Shown piece by piece: positions 8,960 to 21,684 of a DNA stretch of 22,917 bases (its first letter is position 1; every line of letters begins with the position of its first letter). The stretch spans positions 1 to 22,917 of the forward strand of contig DBDL01000151.1 in assembly GCA_002293545.1 (NCBI GenBank), given 5' to 3'. The notes beneath the pieces are model-generated. The model ran no database searches. It worked only from the letters and a program-made list of their open reading frames with translations, and was not told the origin of the DNA. Position numbers and translations under genes: made by a program. Origin of the DNA: Lachnoclostridium sp. UBA933 (GTDB lineage: Bacteria > Bacillota > Clostridia > Lachnospirales > Lachnospiraceae).

Positions 8960-11659
8960 TCAGGAAAATCTTTTCAACTGCTGCCTGAGCTGTTCCATCA
9001 TTTTCTCATACTTCTCAAGCTTCTGCTTTTCTTCTTCCAGTTTCGCCGCCGGCGCCTTACTTACAAAATTAGGATTGTTAAGCATGGCATGAGAACGCTT
9101 TAACTCATTTTGCAGCTTTTCTTCTTCTTTTTTAAGCCGGGCAATTTCCTTTTCCGCATCTATCAGATCGGCAAACGGAATAAATATCGTACCGCCGGAA
9201 AAGATGACGGATACGGCATCCTGTTCTATCCCGGATTTATCGTTCCTGACAACCACTTCACTTGCCGATGCAAGAGCAGCAAAGAATACTTTACTGCGGG
9301 TAAAGACGCCTTGTATCTTTTCATCCTCGGAAATGATGAAGGTCTTTGCCTTTTTCGTCCGCGGAACATTCATTTCAGCGCGCAAGTTCCGGATTCCTTT
9401 TACCGCTTCTTTTATCAGTTCAACGGATTGTTCTTCCTTTTCAAAATCCCACAATTCATTTCCGTTTTCATCTTTCAGGGGAACCGGCCAATCGGAAATC
9501 ATAATGGATGGTTTTTCTTTCCCCTCATTGATATCGGACTTCATGAGCGTACAATATATTTCTTCGGTGACAAACGGCATAAATGGATGAAGAAGCTTCA
9601 GGGCATTGAGCAGGACAGTTTTCAGCGTATGTAACGCCGCCGCTTTTGTTTCGTCGGTTTCCGCATACAAACGCGGTTTCACCATTTCGATATACCAATC
9701 ACAAAATTCTTCCCATATGAAATCATTGATTTTCTGTACGGCAATTCCCAACTCATAGGATTCCATATTCTTTGTTACTTCTTTTATCAGACGATTCATT
9801 CTCGATAAAATCCATTGATCCGCTTCCATTACGGAATTTCCGGTTTTCGGATTAAAACTGCCGTCCGCACTTATGCCGGACTGCGTCAGGTTCATCATGA
9901 TAAAACGGGAAGCATTCCATACTTTGTTGGCAAAATTCCGGCTTGCTTCTACCCGTTCCCAATAAAAGCGCATATCATTTCCGGGAGAATTTCCGGTGAT
10001 CAGAGTAAAACGGAGAGCATCCGCTCCGTATTTTTCGATCACTTCAAGCGGGTCAATTCCATTCCCCAATGACTTGCTCATTTTCCTGCCCTGTGAATCC
10101 CGTACCAGACCGTGAAGCAATACGGTATGAAACGGCCGCCTGCCCATCTGCTCATATCCGGCAAACATCATACGGATGACCCAGAAGAATATAATATCAT
10201 AACCTGTTACAAGTACATCGGTCGGATAAAAATAATCCAGCTCCTTTGTCTTTTCGGGCCAGCCAAGCGTCGAAAACGGCCAGAGTGCCGAACTGAACCA
10301 GGTATCCAAAGTATCTTCCTCTTGCATAAGATGCGTATCACCACATTGGGGACATTTCTCCGGTGCGGTTTTCGCAACGGTTATTTCCCCGCACTTGGCA
10401 CAGATGTAAGCGGGAATACGGTGTCCCCACCACAATTGCCTTGAAATACACCAGTCCCTTATATTATCTGTCCAATTAAAAAACAATTTTTCCATGCGTT
10501 TGGGATACAGCTTGATATCACCGTTTCTAACCGCCTCGGCAGCAGGGCGGATCAGCCGGTCCATTTTCACAAACCATTGCGGTTTGATTAACGGTTCGAT
10601 TGTCGTATGACAGCGGTCATGCATACCGACGTTATGGGAATGCGGTTCCGTTTTTACAAGGAGCTTCAAAGCTTCCAAATCGGCTATGATTGCTTTTCTT
10701 GCCTCATAACGGTTCATTCCCTCATATTTCCCGCCGACAGCGCCTATTGTGGCATCATCATTCATGATATTGATTTCCGGTAAATCATGACGTTTCCCTA
10801 CTTCAAAATCATTCGGGTCATGCGCGGGCGTTATTTTAACAACTCCGGTTCCGAATTCTTTGTCAACATATTCATCCGCTATAATAGGAATTTCCCGCTC
10901 CGTCAACGGAAGAAGCACTGTTTTCCCAACCAGTGACCGATACCGCTCATCCGCCGGATGAACGGCGACCGCCGTATCTCCCAGCATGGTTTCCGGTCTG
11001 GTCGTAGCGATTTCAACAAACCGGTCAGTACCGGCGATGGGGTACTTGATATGCCAAAAATGCCCGTCCTGTTCTTCATGGGTTACTTCCGCATCAGATA
11101 TGGATGTCCGGCAGACCGGACACCAGTTAATGATACGGGACCCTTTATAGATATAGCCTTTCTCGTATAAATCCGTAAAAAACTCCAATACCGCGTCCGA
11201 ACATCCCTCGTCCATCGTGAAACGCTCTCTGTCCCAGTCACAGGAGGAACCCATCTTTTTCAGCTGCTTAATAATGCGGCTGCCGTATTCGTCCCTCCAT
11301 TGCCATGCGCGCTCCAAAAATTTCTCGCGTCCGAGTGCTTTCGGGTCAATTCCTTCGGCTTTCAACTGCTCAATGATTTTCATTTCCGTAGCAATACTTG
11401 CATGATCGGTTCCGGGCTGCCATAAGGTATTGTAGCCCTGCATCCGCTTAAACCGTATTAGAATATCCTGCATCGTATTATCCAACGCATGTCCCATATG
11501 AAGCTGTCCGGTTATATTGGGCGGCGGGATTACTATCGTAAACGGCTTTTTGGACTCATCCGCTTCCGCATGGAAATATTTCTCGTCCATCCATTTTTGA
11601 TAATGCCGTTCCTCAATATCCGACGGATCGTAGTTTTTCTCCAGTTCTCTTATCATCAT
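8960..11659 (-). CDS. valS: Valyl-tRNA synthetase
   Basis: This 899-residue class I aminoacyl-tRNA synthetase charges tRNA-Val and edits mischarged threonine. The HIGH signature is HMGH at 54-57 within PPPNITGQLHMGH, and the KMSKS loop is at 526-530. The zinc-type cysteines CAKCGE...CPQCGD lie in the middle. After the anticodon-binding helical domain comes the C-terminal coiled coil typical of ValS (EKEIARLKKEEEKLQNELKR). Length and order are normal. The ATG at 11659 overlaps the stop of the carbonic anhydrase gene by 4 bp (ATGA); a second ATG follows directly. There is no T-box leader in front, which is uncommon for a Firmicute valS. It ends 18 bp from the convergent radical SAM gene. Confidence 0.97.
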   Translation of the reverse strand: MMIRELEKNYDPSDIEERHYQKWMDEKYFHAEADESKKPFTIVIPPPNITGQLHMGHALDNTMQDILIRFKRMQGYNTLWQPGTDHASIATEMKIIEQLKAEGIDPKALGREKFLERAWQWRDEYGSRIIKQLKKMGSSCDWDRERFTMDEGCSDAVLEFFTDLYEKGYIYKGSRIINWCPVCRTSISDAEVTHEEQDGHFWHIKYPIAGTDRFVEIATTRPETMLGDTAVAVHPADERYRSLVGKTVLLPLTEREIPIIADEYVDKEFGTGVVKITPAHDPNDFEVGKRHDLPEINIMNDDATIGAVGGKYEGMNRYEARKAIIADLEALKLLVKTEPHSHNVGMHDRCHTTIEPLIKPQWFVKMDRLIRPAAEAVRNGDIKLYPKRMEKLFFNWTDNIRDWCISRQLWWGHRIPAYICAKCGEITVAKTAPEKCPQCGDTHLMQEEDTLDTWFSSALWPFSTLGWPEKTKELDYFYPTDVLVTGYDIIFFWVIRMMFAGYEQMGRRPFHTVLLHGLVRDSQGRKMSKSLGNGIDPLEVIEKYGADALRFTLITGNSPGNDMRFYWERVEASRNFANKVWNASRFIMMNLTQSGISADGSFNPKTGNSVMEADQWILSRMNRLIKEVTKNMESYELGIAVQKINDFIWEEFCDWYIEMVKPRLYAETDETKAAALHTLKTVLLNALKLLHPFMPFVTEEIYCTLMKSDINEGKEKPSIMISDWPVPLKDENGNELWDFEKEEQSVELIKEAVKGIRNLRAEMNVPRTKKAKTFIISEDEKIQGVFTRSKVFFAALASASEVVVRNDKSGIEQDAVSVIFSGGTIFIPFADLIDAEKEIARLKKEEEKLQNELKRSHAMLNNPNFVSKAPAAKLEEEKQKLEKYEKMMEQLRQQLKRFS

Positions 11660-12453: not shown

Positions 12454-14151
12454 TCAGCTCATATCTACTTTAAACTTGCTGATCAGTTCATTCAAATTCT
12501 CTGACTGTGCAAACAGTTCTTCACTTGTTGCCGAACTTTCCTCCGCAATTGCCGAGCTGTCCTCGGTTGCCTGTGCAATCTGGTCAATTGCCCTGGTAAT
12601 TTCGGTCATCGAAGAAGCCTGACCCTGCAATGATTTGCCGCTTTCATTCACTGCGGTAACAATTCCCGTAATGCTTTCCAATACTTGATTTAAGAATTCT
12701 GACGTTTCCGCTACTACTTCATTTCCCTTTTGGATTTCATCAATGGATACCTTAATCAAATCCCTTGTATTGTTGGCTGCTTCCGCACTCTCGGTCGCTA
12801 ATTTGCCGATTTCGTTCGCAACAACCGCAAATCCTTTTCCTGCTTCTCCTGCTCTTGCCGCTTCAATCGAAGCATTCAGTGATAATAAATTCGTCTGAGA
12901 AGCGATTTCTTCAATACTTCCGATAATCATTTCGATTTGGCTTGATGTACTGCTGATATTTTCCATAGCAGCCACTACTTTTTCCATCCGTTCCTGACTC
13001 ATCTTAGCATCATTTCCGACTTTTTGTACATCTTTACCGACTTCAACCGCCGTATCCGCATCCTTTAAAACACTGCTTGATACTTCATTCACAGTAGCCG
13101 TAAGTTCTTCGACCGAGCTTGCCTGATTGGTTGCACCCTCTGCCAAGCCCTGTGCGCCTTCCGACATGTTCTGCGCACCTTCCTGAACCTGAACCGAGGC
13201 TTCTTTGATTTGAGCCATCGTACTGTTAAGGTTCGTCTTAATCAATCGCAGCGCTTTCAAAATCAATTGGAACTCTCCGATATAGGAGCTTTCATTTTTG
13301 GTCAAATGCACCAGATTCCCGCTTCCGATTTCTTCTAAGTAGTTCTCAATATCCGGAATAATGATCTTGAATAAATTGATTAATTTACCCAGACTGCCCG
13401 CCAGCATACCGAACTCATCCTTTGATTCATATGTAATCTCAACATCCAAATTACCGGTTGACATTTTTTCCGCCGCTTCCCTTAGTTCTTCCATCGGAGG
13501 AACCATCATGCGGGTGAGTAAACGTGCAAAGAATATTGTCATCAGTAAACTAAGTGCGGCTATAACAGCTACTGCAATAATCAAACCGATACCGAGCATG
13601 TTTGAAGTTTCATAGGCATTTTCTGCCTGCTCATCCTGATAATCCCCCATTTCAATCAATGCATCCAAAAGGGGCTGTACGTTCGGCATATAATCTTCAT
13701 AATATGCCCTTAACGCTTCTTCCTGATCCGATGCCTCCAATGCGTCCATCACCTTTTTTCTTCCCGGTGCAACCGCATCGGATGCCGTCTGTATTCTGTC
13801 CAATAATTCTGCCGCACTGGAATTTTCCTTTAAGAAATCCCGCTGAACACCTTGATTTTCCATATCTTCATTGGCTGTTTCCAGATAACTGCTGATGTTC
13901 ACCTTATTATCTGTCGTTGCCGCCATCAAAAGATTTCTCAGTGTTGACTGCACGTCACGCCGGTATATCAAAGCTGCCTCAACGTTCCTGTACGGTGTTT
14001 CATAAAAATACGTCATCTCCGAATTAAGTATCAAAACCCCAATAACCGAAACGGCTACTGAAATTAAAAAACTTACAATGATAATGATAAATGCCCTGTT
14101 CAATTTCTGTCCGATTTTTAAATTCTTAAACATTTTGCTCATTTCCTGCAT
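12454..14151 (-). CDS. Methyl-accepting chemotaxis protein
   Basis: This 565-residue transmembrane receptor signals to CheA/CheW and so steers the flagella. A membrane helix at about 20-42 is followed by an outer domain of roughly 140 residues that is mainly helical (four-helix-bundle type), a second helix at about 185-209, a HAMP domain to about 265, and a long cytoplasmic coiled coil. The conserved hairpin tip is clear ([22 protein letters not shown], given here in part as [18 protein letters not shown]). No CheR-docking pentapeptide is at the C-terminus. The start is uncertain: the ATG at 14151 is only 3 bases after AGGAGG, and ATGs at codon 4 and codon 7 ([11 protein letters not shown], the usual beginning) are as likely. 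The ligand is unknown. It follows the four-gene unknown operon but seems to have its own promoter. Confidence 0.94.
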
Positions 14152-14236: not shown

Positions 14237-15307
14237 CTAACTCATTTTGGCTTTTTTGTCAATAAAAAATCGTATTCTTTGCCTTTTTTCATTGAGGTGA
14301 TGCCGTACTTCAACCATTTCTCGCGGGTCTGCCAGTGCTTCTGCCTGAAAGTACCATATTTCACAATCTTTTACTCCCAGTTTTTCCATTTCCCGTATCA
14401 GTGCGTCGTGGTATTCTTCCAGCAGCCTTGTGCTTTCATACTGCATTGCCATTTCTTTTTTCATTTGCTTGTATTGATCACAGACATACTCCAATTCCAT
14501 ACTGTTTCGTACGTCATACTTACCACATAAATAATCAATCAGCTTAACGGAATTTACATATTTAATCTTCGTCCGGTTAATCAGCAGTACCGCACGCTCC
14601 CGTTTTTTATTTGTTATGGCGGTAAACCTCCGGTTTCTATAAACCTCATACAATATAAACGAACAAATCAGCAGACCGAATGCAATCACACCCAGAAACG
14701 GCTTCGTTATGTCAATATCATAGAGCCTTTCTAAGGTAAAAAGAAATAGAATCAGTGCTGCCAAAATAATCATCATACTTTTTGCCAGTGTTCTCAAGGT
14801 TTTTTGCTTGGCAACCGTATCTTTCTGCTTTCGCTGAAGGGATTTCTTTTCCATATTTAATCTGCTCAGGTCACTTTTCACATCCGCGAGAAAGGCTTCT
14901 TCCTTTTTCAATGAATCCCTATCCTTTTCTATCGTATCTTCATGCGCTTCCAGCGCATTTTTCTGGCGGTCCGTGATTTTGTACTTCTGTTTCTGCAAGC
15001 GGTTTCTCTCTTTGAATAAATCATAAATCCCTCTTGCTATGTCTGTTACCAGTTGTCTGTCCTCCTCAGGAGCCATATCAATCAACTGGATATCCTTCAA
15101 GTAAGATGTGACCTTCCCGTATTCATGCTTTAAGGATTCCAAGGTCATATCTTCCAAATTGTTCTGAAAGGATTTTTCGTCCTCCGCAGCACCCTTTTGC
15201 CTGCTTGCTGATAACCCCGCTTCTTCTAACGGGTCCCCGCTGCTTTCCTGATTGTCTTCCATAAAACCAACTTGTTCCGATATCTTTTTTTTCTTAAAGG
15301 GCCACAT
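14237..15307 (-). CDS. Coiled-coil protein with two membrane helices, unknown function
   Basis: This 356-residue protein begins MWPFKKKK, followed by an acidic, low-complexity stretch to about 45. A long charged coiled coil covers about 100-175 (lysine/glutamate rich). Two membrane helices at about 178-193 and 203-222 form a hairpin, and a second helical, charged domain of about 130 residues ends the protein. Both large parts are probably in the cytoplasm. The ATG at 15307 comes one base after the stop of the preceding gene, with AAAGG 12 bases upstream. A TTG three codons earlier is too near that ribosome site. It is the last gene of the four-gene unit and its only clearly membrane-bound product, so it may anchor the others. 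I do not recognise the family. Confidence 0.82.
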   Translation of the reverse strand: MWPFKKKKISEQVGFMEDNQESSGDPLEEAGLSASRQKGAAEDEKSFQNNLEDMTLESLKHEYGKVTSYLKDIQLIDMAPEEDRQLVTDIARGIYDLFKERNRLQKQKYKITDRQKNALEAHEDTIEKDRDSLKKEEAFLADVKSDLSRLNMEKKSLQRKQKDTVAKQKTLRTLAKSMMIILAALILFLFTLERLYDIDITKPFLGVIAFGLLICSFILYEVYRNRRFTAITNKKRERAVLLINRTKIKYVNSVKLIDYLCGKYDVRNSMELEYVCDQYKQMKKEMAMQYESTRLLEEYHDALIREMEKLGVKDCEIWYFQAEALADPREMVEVRHHLNEKRQRIRFFIDKKAKMS

Positions 15308-15308
15308 A

Positions 15309-16076
15309 CTATACAAATGCCTTTCTTAACTTATCTTTGCTTATCGTTTCAAAATCTTCACTGACAGGAGAGGAAGCTCCTGCATTTTCTGCCAACTTAA
15401 CATCCCGGATCATTTTTTTGCAGTCCTCCGGTAAAAATCCCATTGCCATAGCTTCTGCCTCAAATGTCTTTTTATCCTCTTCAATTAAAAGCACATACAA
15501 ATAATGTCTTGCCGATTCTTTATTATGATTCCTGATATATGCTTCTTTAAAATAATCGGAAGACTCACGGAATGAGGATACATAGAAAAGGGATATCGCC
15601 AGATTATGAAGAATATCTCCGTATTCCTCCGTTGAAAAATTAACGGCAAAGCTGCTTTTCAACAGCTTCTTATACAGCACGGAGGCTTTTCCGTATCTCC
15701 CGTATTTCAAATAGTTATCCGATTTAATTTTCATTCGGGTATGATACGGAAGATTTATAATATTGTCCAGTATCTTTGTAACCGAACGGATTTCCTTTTC
15801 CCGGTAATAATCAGAAGCGCACAATACGGTCACTACGATATCTTTCAAATCCGGTGTTTCGGTTTCCAGCAGCTTTTCGCATTTATTTGCCAACAACGGA
15901 TGTTTGATTTCATCCCGCACCCATGCAACCAGCTCCGGTGTAAAAAATTCTTCTGTTACCGCATAGATATTTTGATAAATATAATAACACAATTCCTCCA
16001 GTGAATAAAGCAATGTGTCCGAATAAGGTACATTATACGGCAGATCCGCCGTTTTCCCCGTGCATAAAATAAACAT
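15309..16076 (-). CDS. Helical-repeat (TPR-like) protein, unknown function
   Basis: This 255-residue soluble protein begins MFILCTGKTADLPYNVPYSD. Residues about 105-210 look like TPR repeats (NYLKYGRYGKASVLYKKLLK and DILHNLAISLFYVSSFRESS), with a flexible tail. The ATG at 16076 has GGAGG eight bases upstream. A TTG seven codons earlier lies upstream of that site and is unlikely. The gene lies 42 bp after the Hsp70-like gene and 1 bp before the coiled-coil gene, so it belongs to the same operon. TPR proteins often bind Hsp70 tails, which makes a co-chaperone-like role thinkable, but no such tail motif is visible in the neighbour. Confidence 0.8.
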   Translation of the reverse strand: MFILCTGKTADLPYNVPYSDTLLYSLEELCYYIYQNIYAVTEEFFTPELVAWVRDEIKHPLLANKCEKLLETETPDLKDIVVTVLCASDYYREKEIRSVTKILDNIINLPYHTRMKIKSDNYLKYGRYGKASVLYKKLLKSSFAVNFSTEEYGDILHNLAISLFYVSSFRESSDYFKEAYIRNHNKESARHYLYVLLIEEDKKTFEAEAMAMGFLPEDCKKMIRDVKLAENAGASSPVSEDFETISKDKLRKAFV

Positions 16077-16118
16077 GCCGTGTCCTCCGCAAAACAAATC
16101 TTCCCAGAAAGATCCGTA

Positions 16119-17327
16119 TTATTTCGTCGTAATAATCTTTTCCCAAACCCGGTTGGAAGAAGGTTTAAAATTACCAAACCCCTTATCCTTGATTGTAACA
16201 ATGCATGTTTTCATATCCGAAAACCGGATTCTTACACCGATTCTTGCCATCCGCTCCGTTCTTCCGTGTATTCCGTCCAATGTTATCATATGCTCTTTCG
16301 TTTCTCTCCGCAGTACATGCGTTACTTTCACGGTCAGTTCTTCTTCTCCGTCCGGAATCAGGTCAAACTCCCGCTCCGCCTGATACCATGGTGTTCCCGC
16401 TTTCACAAGATAAATCTCTTTCATTCCGGCATCTGCATAGACATTCGTTGTTATATGTACCTGTATTCTTTCGTCATCCAGATATACAAATTCTTCGGCG
16501 GTTCCCCGTTCCGACAATTCCCTTGCCGCATAACAGGCACCGCTTACATATAAATTTTTTCCGACAAATACCCGTCTGCCGGTACAAAGCTTTTGAAATA
16601 CTTTTGCCGCCCAATCTCCGTCAAAACCGCTTCCGGTCATGTACAATGCGGAAATCATCTGCCTGTGGATCGCACTCCTTACCAAATTTTCAAATACAGC
16701 TCCTTTGTCTATTTTCCCGTCCTCTTCATCTTCACATATTTCCATTGATTCCGTATAATCCCGTTTTTTTATGCCAATCAAAATCGGACTGCGCCGCCGC
16801 TCGATATTCATTTGATAATAGAATAACCCTTTTTCATCATATTCAAACATTCCGACATCACTGATCCAGACATCCTTTTCCTGACACAATGTAAAATATA
16901 AATAACTCTGCTTATGGTCGATTACGGCAACGCGGTCTTTTCCGATTCCGATTTTCTCCAGCGCATCGAAGATAACACGGACGAATTCACGCTCTCCTTC
17001 TTCGACCGTAATCACAAGCTGCAAAATTGTTTCACCCGGATACTCTTTTCTTACCGCAGAAAGTGTTTTGCGAAAAAAATAGGAAAGCAAATCAACCTCA
17101 TTCATCTTTTTATCCTGATAAAAAATAGGTTCCCCTCTTCGGACAGACGAAAGAAATCCTGTTATTTTCTCTGTACCGGACGGTATGGTTATGGCTGTTT
17201 CCAAAAAGGCATCCGCACTCTCATCCCCTGCTCCGATAATAACCGGTTCTCTTTTTTTCTCATCATAAACAGCAATCTGTGTTCGTTCATCACATAAATC
17301 ATATCCTACCAAAAGACTTCTTTCCAT
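16119..17327 (-). CDS. Hsp70-like actin-fold protein (DUF5716-like), lidless
   Basis: This 402-residue protein has the order of an Hsp70. LLVGYDLCDERTQIAVYD (5-22) corresponds to the phosphate-1 loop of DnaK (GIDLGTT type). WISDVGMFEYDEKG (154-167) corresponds to the phosphate-2 loop, with the glycines partly lost. LYMTGSGFDGDW and VGKNLYVSGACYAARE (228-270) correspond to the adenosine loop and the C-terminal part of the nucleotide domain. Residues about 300-390 resemble the beta substrate-binding domain: AGTPWYQAEREFDL, then GVRIRFSDMKTCIVTIKDKG, close to the Hsp70 pattern ending in AKDKG. No alpha-helical lid follows, and the nucleotide domain is about 100 residues short. ATP binding is uncertain because several phosphate-loop residues differ. 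The ATG has AGGAG five bases before it. I recall the family as DUF5716; this needs a profile search. Confidence 0.8.
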   Translation of the reverse strand: MERSLLVGYDLCDERTQIAVYDEKKREPVIIGAGDESADAFLETAITIPSGTEKITGFLSSVRRGEPIFYQDKKMNEVDLLSYFFRKTLSAVRKEYPGETILQLVITVEEGEREFVRVIFDALEKIGIGKDRVAVIDHKQSYLYFTLCQEKDVWISDVGMFEYDEKGLFYYQMNIERRRSPILIGIKKRDYTESMEICEDEEDGKIDKGAVFENLVRSAIHRQMISALYMTGSGFDGDWAAKVFQKLCTGRRVFVGKNLYVSGACYAARELSERGTAEEFVYLDDERIQVHITTNVYADAGMKEIYLVKAGTPWYQAEREFDLIPDGEEELTVKVTHVLRRETKEHMITLDGIHGRTERMARIGVRIRFSDMKTCIVTIKDKGFGNFKPSSNRVWEKIITTK

Positions 17328-17358
17328 AGTATCTCCTAATTATGCACGCGTTTTTGCA

Positions 17359-20300
17359 TTACAACGGCTTGAATAATTTTTTTGCCAGTGTTTCATATGT
17401 TTTATACTGACGGCATGCTTCTTCATACCCATCCCGGCTGCCTGCTTTCCGGCAGGCGGACATTTGATTGACAACCGTGAAAAAACTTCTTCCCTGCGGG
17501 CTGTTTTCCAGTTTCATCGGCAGGGGTTCCGTACTTTTTCCGGTTTCTTCTTCGATCACCTGATAGGTAAAGGTTTCCCCTTCAAATACCATTACTTCCT
17601 TTACAAAGATACCGGCATAGATATTACGCATCCCTTCTGTTGTCACATTACCTCTTTCATCTGTTGTTTTCACATTGACGGCGTATTTGGTATCGGAAAA
17701 ATGCTGGACCACATACATGCTTTGCAATTCATACGGCAGCTCTATTTTACCGGAAAACCGCTGCATAAACCGCATGACAATCCCTTCCTTTACCAGACGG
17801 CTGATATGGTAATCCGCAAGCTTATATTGTTCTTCGGTTAAACTTGTGCGTTCACTGTAGTATTTTATCAGTGCCAATATAATAATGGTATTTTCTTCAT
17901 AGATGCTTTCGTGTTTAAAAATTTCAAATACTTCTTCCGATATTTTATAACGGTCCGTCACATATCCGTATGCCGTATAATTTTGAAACGCCCTTGCCAA
18001 AAGACGGTTTTCCCCCGTTTTATTGTACTCACAAAACAGCGGATAAAAACGCTCCGGACGCTCGCCCGCAAACAACACCTGTGCCAAAAGCCTTTCTTTC
18101 GCCTGTTCATCCGGTAAAATCCCTTGTTTCTCTGCATTTTCATATATTTCCAGCAAATCATTTGTCTTTCCCATATAATGACGTACCAGATAAGAAACCG
18201 TCCATTCATTACGATATCCGTCCCGGAATAATTGATAACATAACCGTTGGGAAAACAGTGTGTTTTCTTTTTCTTCGTTACGCACATACCACGTTGCAAG
18301 CGTCAGACCGGCATCCCTTCCGTGTTTGTTCACTCCGTATTTTTCAAGCATTCGGTATGCTTTCTCATAAAAACTGTGTTTTACAAATGACGGGAAACAC
18401 TCTGCTCTCCATTCCGGTTTCAGATACTCCGGATCAATACGCTCCAAAATCTGAACCAGAAATTCATCTTCCTGATGATTCACCGCATACTGATACAAGG
18501 CATACAGCACCCTGCCCAGATAGGCGGGACACAGGATTCCATCTTTTGCCGCCATATCATACAGGATCGCGTCACTCATCGTCACCACCTGCCCGAACTC
18601 CAGTCCGGACAATAGATATAAAAGTAAATACGGATGACTGGAACCGTTTTCAAAGCAATTCACCGCAAACCTTTCCGGGTGCACCAACGGCTCTAAGGTA
18701 TGTTCGATGACCGCAAAGCAATGCTGCTCACGGTCAGTAAAAATAATCCGGGCATTCGGGGTATAGATATCAACCAATGCCTTACCGGAAACCAAAGGAT
18801 AACTTTCCTCTCTTCCGGACTCCGGGTGAATCACCTGTACGCTCTCCATATTGGGATTATCGCATGTTAATAAATGTTTAAACATGACATACGGAAGATT
18901 TCCCGCCACTTCTCCCCTGCAATCGGTTTTGCCGATGATCATTTCATAGATCACCCCCAAGTCGCGGCTAATGCTGTGTGCTTCTAATTTTTTCAAGGCA
19001 AACTCACGAATCGCTTCACTGTACGCCCTGAAATTCTGCGGGCGGTCCATCCGCTCGGACAGCACGGTTGCATACAGATATGCCTTTACTGAATCATTCA
19101 AATGATTCTCATATTGAAAATAAGAAATCACCGACTGCGGAATCCGTATTCCCGCGTCCGGCTTTAGCGTATTCATATAATATTCAAATAAATCAATAAT
19201 CCGAAGACACTTTTTCACTCCCAGCGAATACCATGAAAAATGCTTTCGTTCCGACATTTCATTTCGTATCAAATAACTGCATACACTTTGCAGCGTACCG
19301 TCCAATTGGTATTTTTCATACTGTATCGCAAGACACCGGAGCAACACGAACGAAAAGAATTTTGTACTTTCTGTCAGATAACCCAATGTTTCGGCAAACT
19401 CCCTGTCAAACATATTTTCTTTTAATCCATAATAAATAACCGGAATCGTACAGCCGTCCAGCCGATGGATCAGCGAGCTGTCCTGACGGTAGATACGGAC
19501 TGCTTCCATATATAAAAACGGACTGCTGCACCCTTCCTTGATATGACTTTCTATTTCCTCCAAAACCATCTGCCTGGGTAACGTTTCATACTCGGTGCTG
19601 ATTTTTAAAAGGAAATAAAAAAGTACCCAATGATGATAACCGTTTTCATAATAATAACGAATCTCTTTTATAATACTGCTTCTTTCCTCTTCCTCCGGAA
19701 TGTATAAAAACTTAAAATAACAACCCGCCAAATAGGTCAAAACCGTATTTAACCCCGCACCAAGCTCCGGCTTTTCCATTTTATCTATATTCAGTATAAA
19801 TTCATCTGCCGTTTCTTCCCCATCCCCGACCGTATCCGGTGTTTTTACAAGATAATACCCGCGGATGAAAAACATAAGAGGGTCTTTACAGCCTTTCAAG
19901 CCTGCCATTGCCGCTTTCATATTACGGCTGAATTCTCTTTTTGATATCTTGTCGAGTTCAAATAAAATAATATTCCGGATAAAGGCATGGCAGCACTTTT
20001 TCTGACGCAATCTCTTCTTCCGTTCTTCTTCCAAAGCCGCTTTATGCATCTCAACCGTAACGATTTTTCTCTCATACGGGGATTCCAGTATGATTTTACC
20101 GGTATGCTTCCCCCCCGCGATTTTTGAGCCGTCAACTACAAACGGCAGATTCAGGGTCTGCCCGATAAAATCATCCGTCCACAAGACGATATGTTCCGGA
20201 ATGATCGCTTCATGAGTAACAGAAATCTTGATTCCGACCGATCCCCATGTATTAATCGTCAGTGTCAATACATCTTCAATCTCATGATCTTCCAGCTTAC

Positions 20301-20901
20301 AAATATATGTATTACGGCGGACGGAAAAACGAATCGGTTCTTTTTTATCAAACACCGCCAAAAATTCTTCCATCGCTTGTAATTTAGTATTATATGCCGT
20401 TAGTTTTCGGTAAAGAACTCTTCCCGCCTCATTATCCGCCAAAAAAACATGTTCAAATTCATCGGAATGAAAGAGTCTTGCGCCTTCTTCATAATCGGAC
20501 CGAATCCTCTCCATCAGGGTGATATCATTGTCAATAATGCCCTGTTCATCTTTCAGCACCGGACGAATCACATCAATTCGATAAGGAAGATCCGCCTGCC
20601 CGCAATCCGTAATGATATGCAGTATCCCCTCCATAATCTCACCCGGTCTTTTCTCTCCGGCAGATACCGTAAAACTGATTTTATTCTCCATCCCGTCAAA
20701 AACAGGAAGAAAAGGTATGATATATTCATCGGCACAAATAAAACCTTTCACTTTTGTTCCTGCCGAATTGCAAACCGTAAACGAAACATTTTCCTCTTTC
20801 CCTGCCACGACAAAAAGCCGCAGGTATTTTTCTGATATTTGCAGCTTCACTGTTCCGTGATTCATTTTTCCTTTTGCCAAGGCAACAATTCGTTCCTTCA
20901 A
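17359..20901 (-). CDS. Very large beta/helical-repeat protein (DUF5717-like)
   Basis: This protein of about 1180 residues is the first gene of the four-gene unit. The first ~300 residues look beta-rich, like stacked immunoglobulin-type domains (KLQISEKYLRLFVVAG; GKHTGKIILESPYERKIVTV). A long all-helical region from about 310 to 1040 has an irregular repeat pattern (many FLL, YLY and RCLAIQYEKYQ-like helices). A beta-rich end begins at about 1048 (GKIELPYELQSMYVVQHFSD) and finishes with a helix (ACRQYKTYETLAKKLFKPL). No signal peptide or clear membrane helix is seen, so it is probably cytoplasmic. I place the start at the TTG at 20901 because AGGTGA stands five bases before it; the GTG at 20910 overlaps that site. 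It lies 31 bp before the Hsp70-like gene. I recall the family as DUF5717 from Lachnospiraceae; the role is unknown. Confidence 0.85.
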   Translation of the reverse strand: MKERIVALAKGKMNHGTVKLQISEKYLRLFVVAGKEENVSFTVCNSAGTKVKGFICADEYIIPFLPVFDGMENKISFTVSAGEKRPGEIMEGILHIITDCGQADLPYRIDVIRPVLKDEQGIIDNDITLMERIRSDYEEGARLFHSDEFEHVFLADNEAGRVLYRKLTAYNTKLQAMEEFLAVFDKKEPIRFSVRRNTYICKLEDHEIEDVLTLTINTWGSVGIKISVTHEAIIPEHIVLWTDDFIGQTLNLPFVVDGSKIAGGKHTGKIILESPYERKIVTVEMHKAALEEERKKRLRQKKCCHAFIRNIILFELDKISKREFSRNMKAAMAGLKGCKDPLMFFIRGYYLVKTPDTVGDGEETADEFILNIDKMEKPELGAGLNTVLTYLAGCYFKFLYIPEEEERSSIIKEIRYYYENGYHHWVLFYFLLKISTEYETLPRQMVLEEIESHIKEGCSSPFLYMEAVRIYRQDSSLIHRLDGCTIPVIYYGLKENMFDREFAETLGYLTESTKFFSFVLLRCLAIQYEKYQLDGTLQSVCSYLIRNEMSERKHFSWYSLGVKKCLRIIDLFEYYMNTLKPDAGIRIPQSVISYFQYENHLNDSVKAYLYATVLSERMDRPQNFRAYSEAIREFALKKLEAHSISRDLGVIYEMIIGKTDCRGEVAGNLPYVMFKHLLTCDNPNMESVQVIHPESGREESYPLVSGKALVDIYTPNARIIFTDREQHCFAVIEHTLEPLVHPERFAVNCFENGSSHPYLLLYLLSGLEFGQVVTMSDAILYDMAAKDGILCPAYLGRVLYALYQYAVNHQEDEFLVQILERIDPEYLKPEWRAECFPSFVKHSFYEKAYRMLEKYGVNKHGRDAGLTLATWYVRNEEKENTLFSQRLCYQLFRDGYRNEWTVSYLVRHYMGKTNDLLEIYENAEKQGILPDEQAKERLLAQVLFAGERPERFYPLFCEYNKTGENRLLARAFQNYTAYGYVTDRYKISEEVFEIFKHESIYEENTIIILALIKYYSERTSLTEEQYKLADYHISRLVKEGIVMRFMQRFSGKIELPYELQSMYVVQHFSDTKYAVNVKTTDERGNVTTEGMRNIYAGIFVKEVMVFEGETFTYQVIEEETGKSTEPLPMKLENSPQGRSFFTVVNQMSACRKAGSRDGYEEACRQYKTYETLAKKLFKPL

Positions 20902-20939: not shown

Positions 20940-20969
20940 ATTATATCACTTTTTGTCGTAATTTAGCAA
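20940..20969 (-). promoter_or_regulatory. Sigma-A promoter of the four-gene operon
   Basis: On the minus strand TTGCTA (20969-20964), an 18-base spacer and a perfect TATAAT (20945-20940) with an extended TGA before it. Transcription would begin near 20932, about 30 bases before the TTG start. Confidence 0.7.
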
Positions 20970-21088
20970 GTCAGAAAAATTTTTTAATATTCTTTTACCG
21001 TCCTGATTTTTTTGCGGAATGATTCGATATATATAGTAAGAGTACACTTTCTTCTTTTTCATATGGCGGGCACACGGAGGTGATTGTC

Positions 21089-21334
21089 ATGAAAATGTTA
21101 TATAATTCACATGTTGTTCAACCGGTTGCAAAGACAGGAGGGACACTGACAGGGACGTACGGAAGCAATAATGAAAGAGGGCAGGCAGACAGTGGATTCC
21201 GTGACTTTTCTCAAATTATGAAAGAGAAGAAAGAAGAACAAAAGTTGTTGGGTTATGAAAAATCACAACCGGGATCCCCTATCAGCTTCTATAACAGGGA
21301 AGCACAAGTCTTCTTTCTATTGAAAAAGAACTGA
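21089..21334 (+). CDS. Orphan 81-residue protein, unknown function
   Basis: The product begins MKMLYNSHVVQPVAKTGGTL, is polar with a lysine/glutamate-rich middle (FSQIMKEKKEEQK) and ends in AQVFFLLKKN. There is no membrane helix, signal peptide or cysteine. The gene is credible because a perfect GGAGGTGA ribosome site lies five bases before the ATG and a strong terminator begins at its stop codon. A GTG three codons upstream overlaps that ribosome site. It is transcribed away from the DUF5717-like gene. The weak promoter candidate TTGCGG/TAGTAA near 21014-21041 is not convincing. The F-S-Q-I-M-K-E piece loosely resembles short flagellar export proteins, but I would not assign a function. Confidence 0.7.
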   Translation: MKMLYNSHVVQPVAKTGGTLTGTYGSNNERGQADSGFRDFSQIMKEKKEEQKLLGYEKSQPGSPISFYNREAQVFFLLKKN

Positions 21335-21358
21335 GGTCATAATGACCTCGGTTTTTTT
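21333..21358 (+). terminator. Rho-independent terminator of the 81-residue gene
   Basis: GAGGTCA, TAA, TGACCTC form a perfect 7-bp stem, followed by GGTTTTTTT. The stem begins within the stop codon region of the gene. Confidence 0.95.
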
Positions 21359-21367
21359 CCTATGGGA

Positions 21368-21390
21368 AAAAGTTTGCTTTGCAAACTTTT
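21368..21390. repeat. Perfect 10-bp hairpin AAAAGTTTGC-TTT-GCAAACTTTT
   Basis: A perfect inverted repeat with a 3-base loop lies just after the terminator of the 81-residue gene. It ends in T on both strands, so it could act as a back-up terminator in either direction. It precedes the promoter of the predicted small RNA by 16 bp. Confidence 0.6.
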
Positions 21391-21406
21391 AGGCTGCGTT
21401 TTTTCA

Positions 21407-21435
21407 TTGACATTTTGAAAGTGCTGTCATATAAT
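21407..21435 (+). promoter_or_regulatory. Perfect consensus sigma-A promoter
   Basis: TTGACA (21407-21412), exactly 17 bases, TATAAT (21430-21435): 12 of 12 consensus positions with ideal spacing. Nothing in the following 100 bases is a protein gene on this strand, so it drives a short RNA. Confidence 0.88.
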
Positions 21436-21441
21436 ATGCTT

Positions 21442-21535
21442 AACGGGACAGCCGGGGGATAGTCTTCTCTATCCGTTCCGGTGAAATAAAGCAAAAAATA
21501 GCGTTTGTTTGCCAAAACATGGGACGCTATTTTTT
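21442..21535 (+). ncRNA. Predicted ~94-nt small RNA, possible antitoxin RNA
   Basis: The ends are inferred: transcription should begin 6-8 bases after TATAAT, near 21442, and stop at the hairpin 21493-21535. The 5' part folds as CCGG, GGGATAG, loop TCTTCT, CTATCC, GTT, CCGG (about 21452-21481). A short A-rich linker follows, then the terminator stem. It has no ribosome site or reading frame. I do not recognise a known RNA family: it lacks the marks of 6S, SRP RNA or the usual riboswitches. Its 3' end is complementary to the last codons and 3' end of the peptide gene at 21527-21634 on the other strand, the arrangement of txpA/RatA-type type I toxin-antitoxin loci. Confidence 0.65.
21493..21535. 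terminator. Bidirectional terminator shared by small RNA and peptide gene
   Basis: AAAAAATAGCGT (21493-21504) and ACGCTATTTTTT (21524-21535) are perfect 12-bp complements around a 19-base loop. T-runs are present in both directions. The peptide gene stop codon lies within the stem. Confidence 0.88.
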
Positions 21536-21634
21536 ATACTTTAAATATCCAAGTATTACAAACACTAATCCAATTACTCCCACAACAACGCTTATCGTAT
21601 TATGTATCACTGTAATCGTTTCATATGTGTTCAA
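21527..21634 (-). CDS. 35-residue membrane peptide, candidate type I toxin
   Basis: The peptide starts MNTYETITVI (if the TTG at 21634 is the start), has one hydrophobic helix of about 20 residues (SVVVGVIGLVFVILGYL) and ends YLKYKK. M-(S/N)-TYE, a single helix and a lysine tail are the pattern of the holin-like toxin family (Hol_Tox, TxpA-related), known to me from Firmicute type I systems; such toxins disturb the membrane when not silenced by an antisense RNA. The start is the weak point: TTG has no good ribosome site, and a TGATATTAT extended -10 box lies directly before it. It begins 51 bp after the purF stop, so it could also be read from the purF transcript. Confidence 0.5.
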   Translation of the reverse strand: MNTYETITVIHNTISVVVGVIGLVFVILGYLKYKK

Positions 21635-21684
21635 TCTATAATATCAGCAGTATTCTATCGTTTTGAGGAGCAGGCAAATACACC

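Follow-up and report, generated by a model that had tools for sequence, protein, structure and literature searches.

The question raised by this locus is what a small operon with an Hsp70-like product does in the Lachnospiraceae, a major family of gut bacteria. The operon lies on contig DBDL01000151.1 of Lachnoclostridium sp. UBA933; the full analysed stretch of 22,917 nucleotides is here referred to as the window, and all window coordinates refer to it. Four co-directional genes on the minus strand encode, in order, DUF5717, DUF5716, a TPR (tetratricopeptide repeat)-like protein and a membrane coiled-coil protein (DUF, Domain of Unknown Function). The main finding, which was not visible from the window sequence, is a larger Hsp70/GrpE/VWA cluster in sister families of the same order. 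On this basis we consider, at a probability of roughly 0.6, that the operon is the reduced Lachnospiraceae form of the order's dedicated Hsp70 chaperone machine, with DUF5716 as a clamp or structural component that runs no nucleotide cycle.

The first gene (17359..20901, minus strand) encodes DUF5717, a scaffold protein of 1180 aa with a TTG start, whose Pfam domains DUF5717_N (E 1.6e-195) and C-terminal DUF5717 (E 6e-57) score 652 and 193.6 against a gathering cut-off of 25. The second (16119..17327, minus) encodes DUF5716, a degenerate lidless Hsp70 of 402 aa that scores 334.3 against a cut-off of 34.7. The TPR-like protein (15309..16076, minus; 255 aa) starts with an ATG behind GGAGG and matches TPR_2 weakly, under the Pfam cut-off. 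The coiled-coil protein (14237..15307, minus; 356 aa) carries, mid-chain, a transmembrane hairpin of two segments (14642..14788, minus) with hydropathy maxima of 2.41 and 2.28, as had been expected from the sequence alone. Since by hydropathy it is the only product with transmembrane segments, the set looks cytoplasmic with one membrane anchor. The intergenic gaps of 31, 42 and 1 bp given in a preliminary description of this DNA were exact on a recount of the open reading frame (ORF) ends, and the Pfam scan agrees with its statement that DUF names exist for the first two products and none for the other two. NCBIfam gave zero names over its cut-offs for the four products, and the window has no match in Rfam.

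Is the operon a conserved unit? DUF5716 is present in 293 of 299 Lachnospiraceae genomes, taken as one genome per genus (243 of 246 among the near-complete ones), and in nearly all of them as a single copy. Five of 398 genomes sampled from the phylum possess it, all five Lachnospiraceae and the window's own among them. The DUF5716 loci include Anaeromicropila populeti, Mobilisporobacter senegalensis and many designated as "Lachnospiraceae bacterium". Of the six Lachnospiraceae genomes without DUF5716, three keep DUF5717: G542 has it complete, G494 has it where a contig stops, and G524 has it broken into three short frames. In the order at large, 94 of 196 genomes gave a match to DUF5717_N; 22 of them belong to the Lachnospiraceae and 72 to other families.

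Gene order was compared in 53 loci, namely the window, 32 others and 20 picked for long contigs. They were selected via DUF5716 matches, so the presence of DUF5716 is by construction, while that of the other genes is not. DUF5717 and DUF5716 are adjacent in 52 loci, the remaining one being cut by a contig end, and DUF5716 adjoins the TPR gene in all 53, counting one with an overlapping TPR ORF (L008). The coiled-coil gene comes next in 37 (including L008); in L012 the sequence is cut off, and the remaining 15 have no such gene at that place. Among 46 further loci, DUF5717 is present in 43 (split into two ORFs in L225 of genome G458) while 45 have the TPR gene; of the three loci without DUF5717, two stop at a contig end and one, L222, is a genuine exception. 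The order of the first three genes is thus kept in the 53 loci to their contig limits, with two exceptions in the 46 further ones. This survey supports the conserved unit that had been claimed, with the large scaffold and the membrane coiled coil as members.

The fold of DUF5716 bears out its description as Hsp70-like: an actin-like nucleotide-binding domain (NBD) is followed by the substrate-binding beta domain (SBDbeta), the arrangement expected of the Hsp70 superfamily. The protein falls short of the ATPase motifs phosphate 1 and phosphate 2; the strict phosphate 1 pattern occurs in 0 of 52 DUF5716 sequences and the pattern DxGxG[TS] in one of 52. From phosphate 2 to the adenosine motif the spacing is 64-82 residues, against 137-186 in the other Hsp70 classes (motif counts of class D include one canonical DnaK, L122), which means that subdomain IIB is missing; this is the Hsp70 lobe moved by exchange factors, according to PMC10825016. 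The window protein terminates in a beta strand (residues 394-400 of 402) and has no C-terminal helical lid. Of the Hsp70 architecture, DUF5716 has retained the core fold and the SBDbeta, and it has lost the nucleotide-loop motifs, the lid and the GrpE-gripped lobe. An Hsp70-like "switch" had been proposed, and this role is unsupported because DUF5716 lacks the nucleotide-loop motifs searched for and the exchange-factor lobe.

The same losses separate DUF5716 from the DnaK/GrpE/DnaJ chaperones, and neither GrpE nor a J protein is encoded in the operon. In its mode of working DUF5716 would resemble Ssz1, a non-canonical Hsp70 that belongs to the ribosome-associated complex (RAC) of eukaryotes; the lidless Ssz1 shows weak, fast peptide binding (PMC7083937). 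However, Ssz1 binds ATP and has a J-domain partner, whereas the Pfam scan of the four operon products contains no J domain (the rest of the genome was not searched for it). More of the NBD is lost in DUF5716, which is likened to Ssz1 here and not counted as its member.

What surrounds DUF5717 outside the Lachnospiraceae? The sister-family set, drawn from the DUF5717 matches, covers 40 loci in 38 genomes belonging to other families of the order; 15 of these loci were extended downstream. The genes run in the order DUF5717, Hsp70-A, a GrpE-domain protein, Hsp70-B, Hsp70-C, an Hsp70-VWA fusion and a TPR protein (about 387 aa), sometimes followed by the coiled coil and valS. In form, an Hsp70 with intact loops and a GrpE precede a degenerate Hsp70, a second intact Hsp70 and the Hsp70-VWA fusion. 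Hsp70-A (about 559 aa) is present in 31 of the 40 loci, the GrpE domain, at the C-terminal end of a longer protein (mostly 560-645 aa), in 29, Hsp70-B (about 523 aa) in 24, Hsp70-C (about 546 aa) in 23 and "VWA" in 17, a count that includes the canonical DnaK L122. Within the 15 extended loci the figures are 15 for A, 15 for GrpE, 14 for B, 15 for C, 14 for VWA, 14 for TPR and 6 for the coiled coil. By source names, organisms with the GrpE fusion are Defluviitalea raffinosedens, D. phaphyphila and Epulopiscium sp. In family f144, the loci without an adjacent Hsp70-A are L103, L108, L111, L118, L126, L132, L133 and L136, some of which end at contig limits. The f144 genomes G728 and G738 have their two DUF5717 ORFs on different contigs, and in G738 Hsp70-A adjoins the other DUF5717 piece (L135).

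Beyond DUF5717, the Lachnospiraceae and sister-family clusters share orthologous TPR proteins (profile match 99.9%, E 1.9e-32) and coiled-coil proteins (100%, E 2.7e-45). A control, another TPR set from the same loci, gave 20% against the Lachnospiraceae set and reached 94% with the TPR set of the sister families, where a general TPR likeness thus has to be reckoned with. In a tree of 74 of the 150 Hsp70-type sequences, unrooted and with a warning by the method of long branches among its rows, the 16 DUF5716 rows cluster together (SH-aLRT 97), and this cluster joins Hsp70-B of L097 (99). Classes A and C form one group each (100 and 99), D is held at 91, and the B rows need two changes. It could also be that the large cluster is the derived state and that Hsp70s, GrpE and VWA joined an old four-gene unit. 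The trees are unrooted and the counts cannot separate gain from loss, which leaves room for such a gain; we regard it as improbable, given that DUF5716 groups with Hsp70-B of L097, a member of a full cluster. Moreover, DUF5716 itself is the trimmed state, because the four other Hsp70 classes keep the lobe that it lost.

All 12 sister-family genomes checked possess two GrpE proteins, the canonical one (E 6.4e-44 or better) and that of the cluster (2.7e-9 to 1.0e-15). Canonical GrpE is found in 13 of 13 Lachnospiraceae genomes checked; extra matches occur in G402 (three strong ones in all, in an assembly with 6% contamination) and, under the cut-off, in G657 and G222. The operon could also be an adaptor for DnaK/GrpE/DnaJ, whose DUF5716 and scaffold would gather clients for DnaK as Ssz1 in RAC serves Ssb. 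We hold this to be unlikely, though worth keeping in view: there is no J domain among the scanned operon products, and the window's own assembly (G000) gave no GrpE match and no full-length DnaK, with two partial Hsp70 matches. The absence of GrpE and DnaK may be a gap, because this assembly is 92.6% complete.

The scaffold itself was examined in a predicted model (pLDDT 86, pTM 0.59). Its TTG start at 20901 fits the homologues, most of which open with M-K/R-E-K at that residue. A first Ig/ASH-like beta sandwich (20533..20844, minus; about residues 20-123) and a second Ig/ASH/PapD-like domain (20041..20328, minus; residues 192-287) are followed by an alpha solenoid (17512..20031, minus; residues 291-673 and 746-1060), interrupted by a beta domain at 675-738 and followed by a terminal one at 1063-1130; the helical repeats foreseen for this large protein are borne out by the model. 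In 30 of the 40 sister-family loci DUF5717 is two ORFs of about 400 and 900 aa, and the break falls shortly past the second Ig/ASH/PapD-like domain. Foldseek matches of the model include ciliary central-pair proteins, with query TM-scores of 0.07-0.09, which are so low that we take them as reflecting the Ig/ASH domains alone. ASH/PapD-like scaffolds (HYDIN, CEP192) and chaperone-usher PapD folds share the fold, with no sign of common function or descent. Neither DUF5716 nor DUF5717 matched any solved structure by sequence up to E 1. Three profile matches to DUF5717 elsewhere in the phylum (E 5e-5 to 1e-3) were read as chance, because none of the 12 cluster profiles matched their neighbourhoods at E 0.1. 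In one clade that lacks the coiled coil (L139, L143, L149, L200, L201, L203, L208, L211 and L215), a deletion has shortened the solenoid by some 80 residues, at about 757-840 of the window protein. This stretch was considered as the coiled-coil binding site and rejected, the deletion being confined to that clade and 14 other rows without the coiled coil retaining the stretch.

Which cells carry the coiled coil? It was found (E 1e-8 or better) in 3 of 3 sister-family genomes and in 29 of 77 Lachnospiraceae genomes, 20 of which were picked for long contigs. A role in spores or motility had been suggested for the operon. However, among 77 genomes with DUF5716, SpoIVA over the cut-off is missing from 27, flagellin from 37 and both from 16, so that the data do not support a role of the whole operon that is specific to either process. 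The link to sporulation was also rejected for the coiled coil alone (against SpoIVA, p 0.41), while motility leaves an echo in this one gene. Both features were scored in 61 genomes (G488 was left out for want of DUF5716): 23 have coiled coil and flagellin, none the coiled coil alone, 7 flagellin alone and 31 neither (Fisher p 5e-11, uncorrected for kinship). Seven later loci with known flagellin status added the coiled coil in three flagellin-bearing genomes (G504, G495, G506) and its absence in one with flagellin (G507) and two without (G492, G501); G510, whose contig stops behind the TPR gene, was excluded. In total, 26 of the 26 coiled-coil genomes with known flagellin status have flagellin. 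A tree of the 48 scored genomes implies five changes of the coiled coil and nine of flagellin; of five independent contrasts, 4.5 on average go in the same direction and never one in the opposite (median p 0.0625, range 0.0625-0.25). The trees do not include L230, L231 and L237; L193, L222 and L223, for which DUF5717 sequence was lacking, are missing from the first tree and present in the second, which was used for this test. We treat the association as a lead, not a result.

This lead bears on two further explanations. One is an ATP-independent scaffolded assembly into which an Hsp70 machine would have been converted: the pseudo-Hsp70 would clamp passively, mounted on a very large ASH/solenoid scaffold, and the coiled coil would fit the assembly to flagellated cells, perhaps for the construction or positioning of flagella or chemoreceptors; we advance it tentatively, as something short of probable. 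The other, rather unlikely in our view, involves no chaperone at all: DUF5716 would be a frozen actin-fold subunit of a structural assembly at the inner membrane face, linked by the coiled coil to flagella, chemoreceptors or the envelope in flagellated species. It would suit a scaffold of Ig/ASH-like and solenoid domains, whose Ig part is matched by ciliary proteins among others, and the confinement of the coiled coil to genomes with flagellin (23 of 23, and 26 of 26 with the later loci). But DUF5716 is retained in the 37 genomes without flagellin, its relatives sit in an Hsp70 cluster equipped with GrpE, 8 flagellin-bearing genomes have no coiled coil, and the tree-controlled p is 0.0625.

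The nearest published description, in the open-access literature searched, is that of the GAP1-N2 GTPase-centric systems with HSP70, GrpE and FNIII-TPR proteins (Kaur et al. 2020, PMC7159879); we found none of the operon or the sister cluster. In a word search "DUF5717" occurred nowhere and "DUF5716" in a single paper, unrelated by its title, and the signature-protein papers, surveyed by their listings, held nothing relevant. According to PMC7159879, these systems share Hsp70, GrpE, beta-sandwich and TPR parts and a proposed action near the membrane. They are built around GTPases and sit in mobile, variable neighbourhoods, whereas the Lachnospiraceae operon is nearly universal in its family. 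By this partial resemblance the operon could be a phage-defence or conflict system, and a candidate-defence model, PDC-M61B, matches Hsp70-C (E 8.7e-11) and Hsp70-D (E 4.4e-7) of the sister clusters over part of its length. We think this highly improbable: DUF5716 occurs in 293 of 299 genomes of the family, nearly always in one copy and with its order kept; no PADLOC match of the four window proteins is better than E 0.018; and Pfam scans of operon and sister-cluster proteins, which did not cover every neighbour, showed no GTPase, GAP1 or tubulin domain. The four PADLOC matches of seven sister-cluster proteins, including those of the TPR protein to PrimPol and PDC-M71B (both about 4e-6, part of the model), were read, provisionally, as general Hsp70/TPR likeness.

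We therefore return to the reduced chaperone machine. In this proposal the scaffold, DUF5716 and the TPR protein would be what the Lachnospiraceae kept, along with the coiled coil in some members of the family. DUF5716, free of any nucleotide cycle, would act as a peptide clamp or a structural part held by the DUF5717 solenoid and the TPR protein, and its SBDbeta might dock clients by weak, fast binding, by analogy with the lidless yeast Ssz1. Where present, the coiled coil would bring the set to the inner membrane face, and clients may then go on to the housekeeping DnaK. Several observations weigh against this proposal. DUF5717 stands without an adjacent Hsp70-A in 9 of 40 sister-family loci, eight of them in f144, so scaffold and Hsp70 are separable. 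L222 (G436) has DUF5716, TPR and coiled coil with no DUF5717 within 4.7 kb upstream, and L215 (G481) has DUF5717 and DUF5716 with no detectable TPR gene within 2.9 kb downstream. The profile search did not find the coiled coil in 48 of 77 Lachnospiraceae genomes. DUF5716 may still bind nucleotide, and co-conservation is no proof of one complex. As the tree is unrooted and carries the long-branch warning, we only infer the loss of ATPases in Lachnospiraceae.

A good promoter had been claimed for the operon. A promoter-like site is present ahead of DUF5717 (20940..20969, minus; TTGCTA-18-TATAAT with TG before the -10), by consensus match only. The window holds 29 such sites where shuffled sequence has 25.6 on average (sd 5.7), which is no excess, and the promoter is therefore plausible at most. 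Between purF and DUF5717 a perfect consensus promoter (TTGACA-17-TATAAT, 12/12; 21407-21435, plus strand) is directed away from the operon. Upstream of DUF5717 many relatives have a class I/II aminotransferase gene, mostly divergent (by profile, and by Pfam for two, L025:3511-4677 and L101:11068-12216), where the window has short ORFs only (20970-21684) before purF. Directly behind the operon lies a methyl-accepting chemotaxis protein gene (12454-14151), which has a promoter-like TTGACA-17-TAGAAT of its own (14262-14234); among the relatives' loci compared, this gene is not conserved as a neighbour. The valS product (8960-11659) has a rubredoxin-like zinc-ribbon match over the cut-off (residues 418-440, E 4.7e-8). 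Of the 53 Lachnospiraceae loci, the window and five others (L033, L034, L137, L141, L147) have valS no more than five genes downstream of DUF5716; in the sister-family loci L158 and L161 it follows the coiled coil (Pfam).

For the family, these results mean that DUF5716 is near-universal in the sample, yet two genes of its operon bear DUF names only and two none. The comparison with the sister families amounts to an experiment of nature: the ATPases and the GrpE of an Hsp70 system have, it seems, gone from the Lachnospiraceae, and with them the lobe gripped by GrpE. It makes two questions testable: what role an Hsp70 fold can have without a nucleotide cycle, and what purpose the machine serves.
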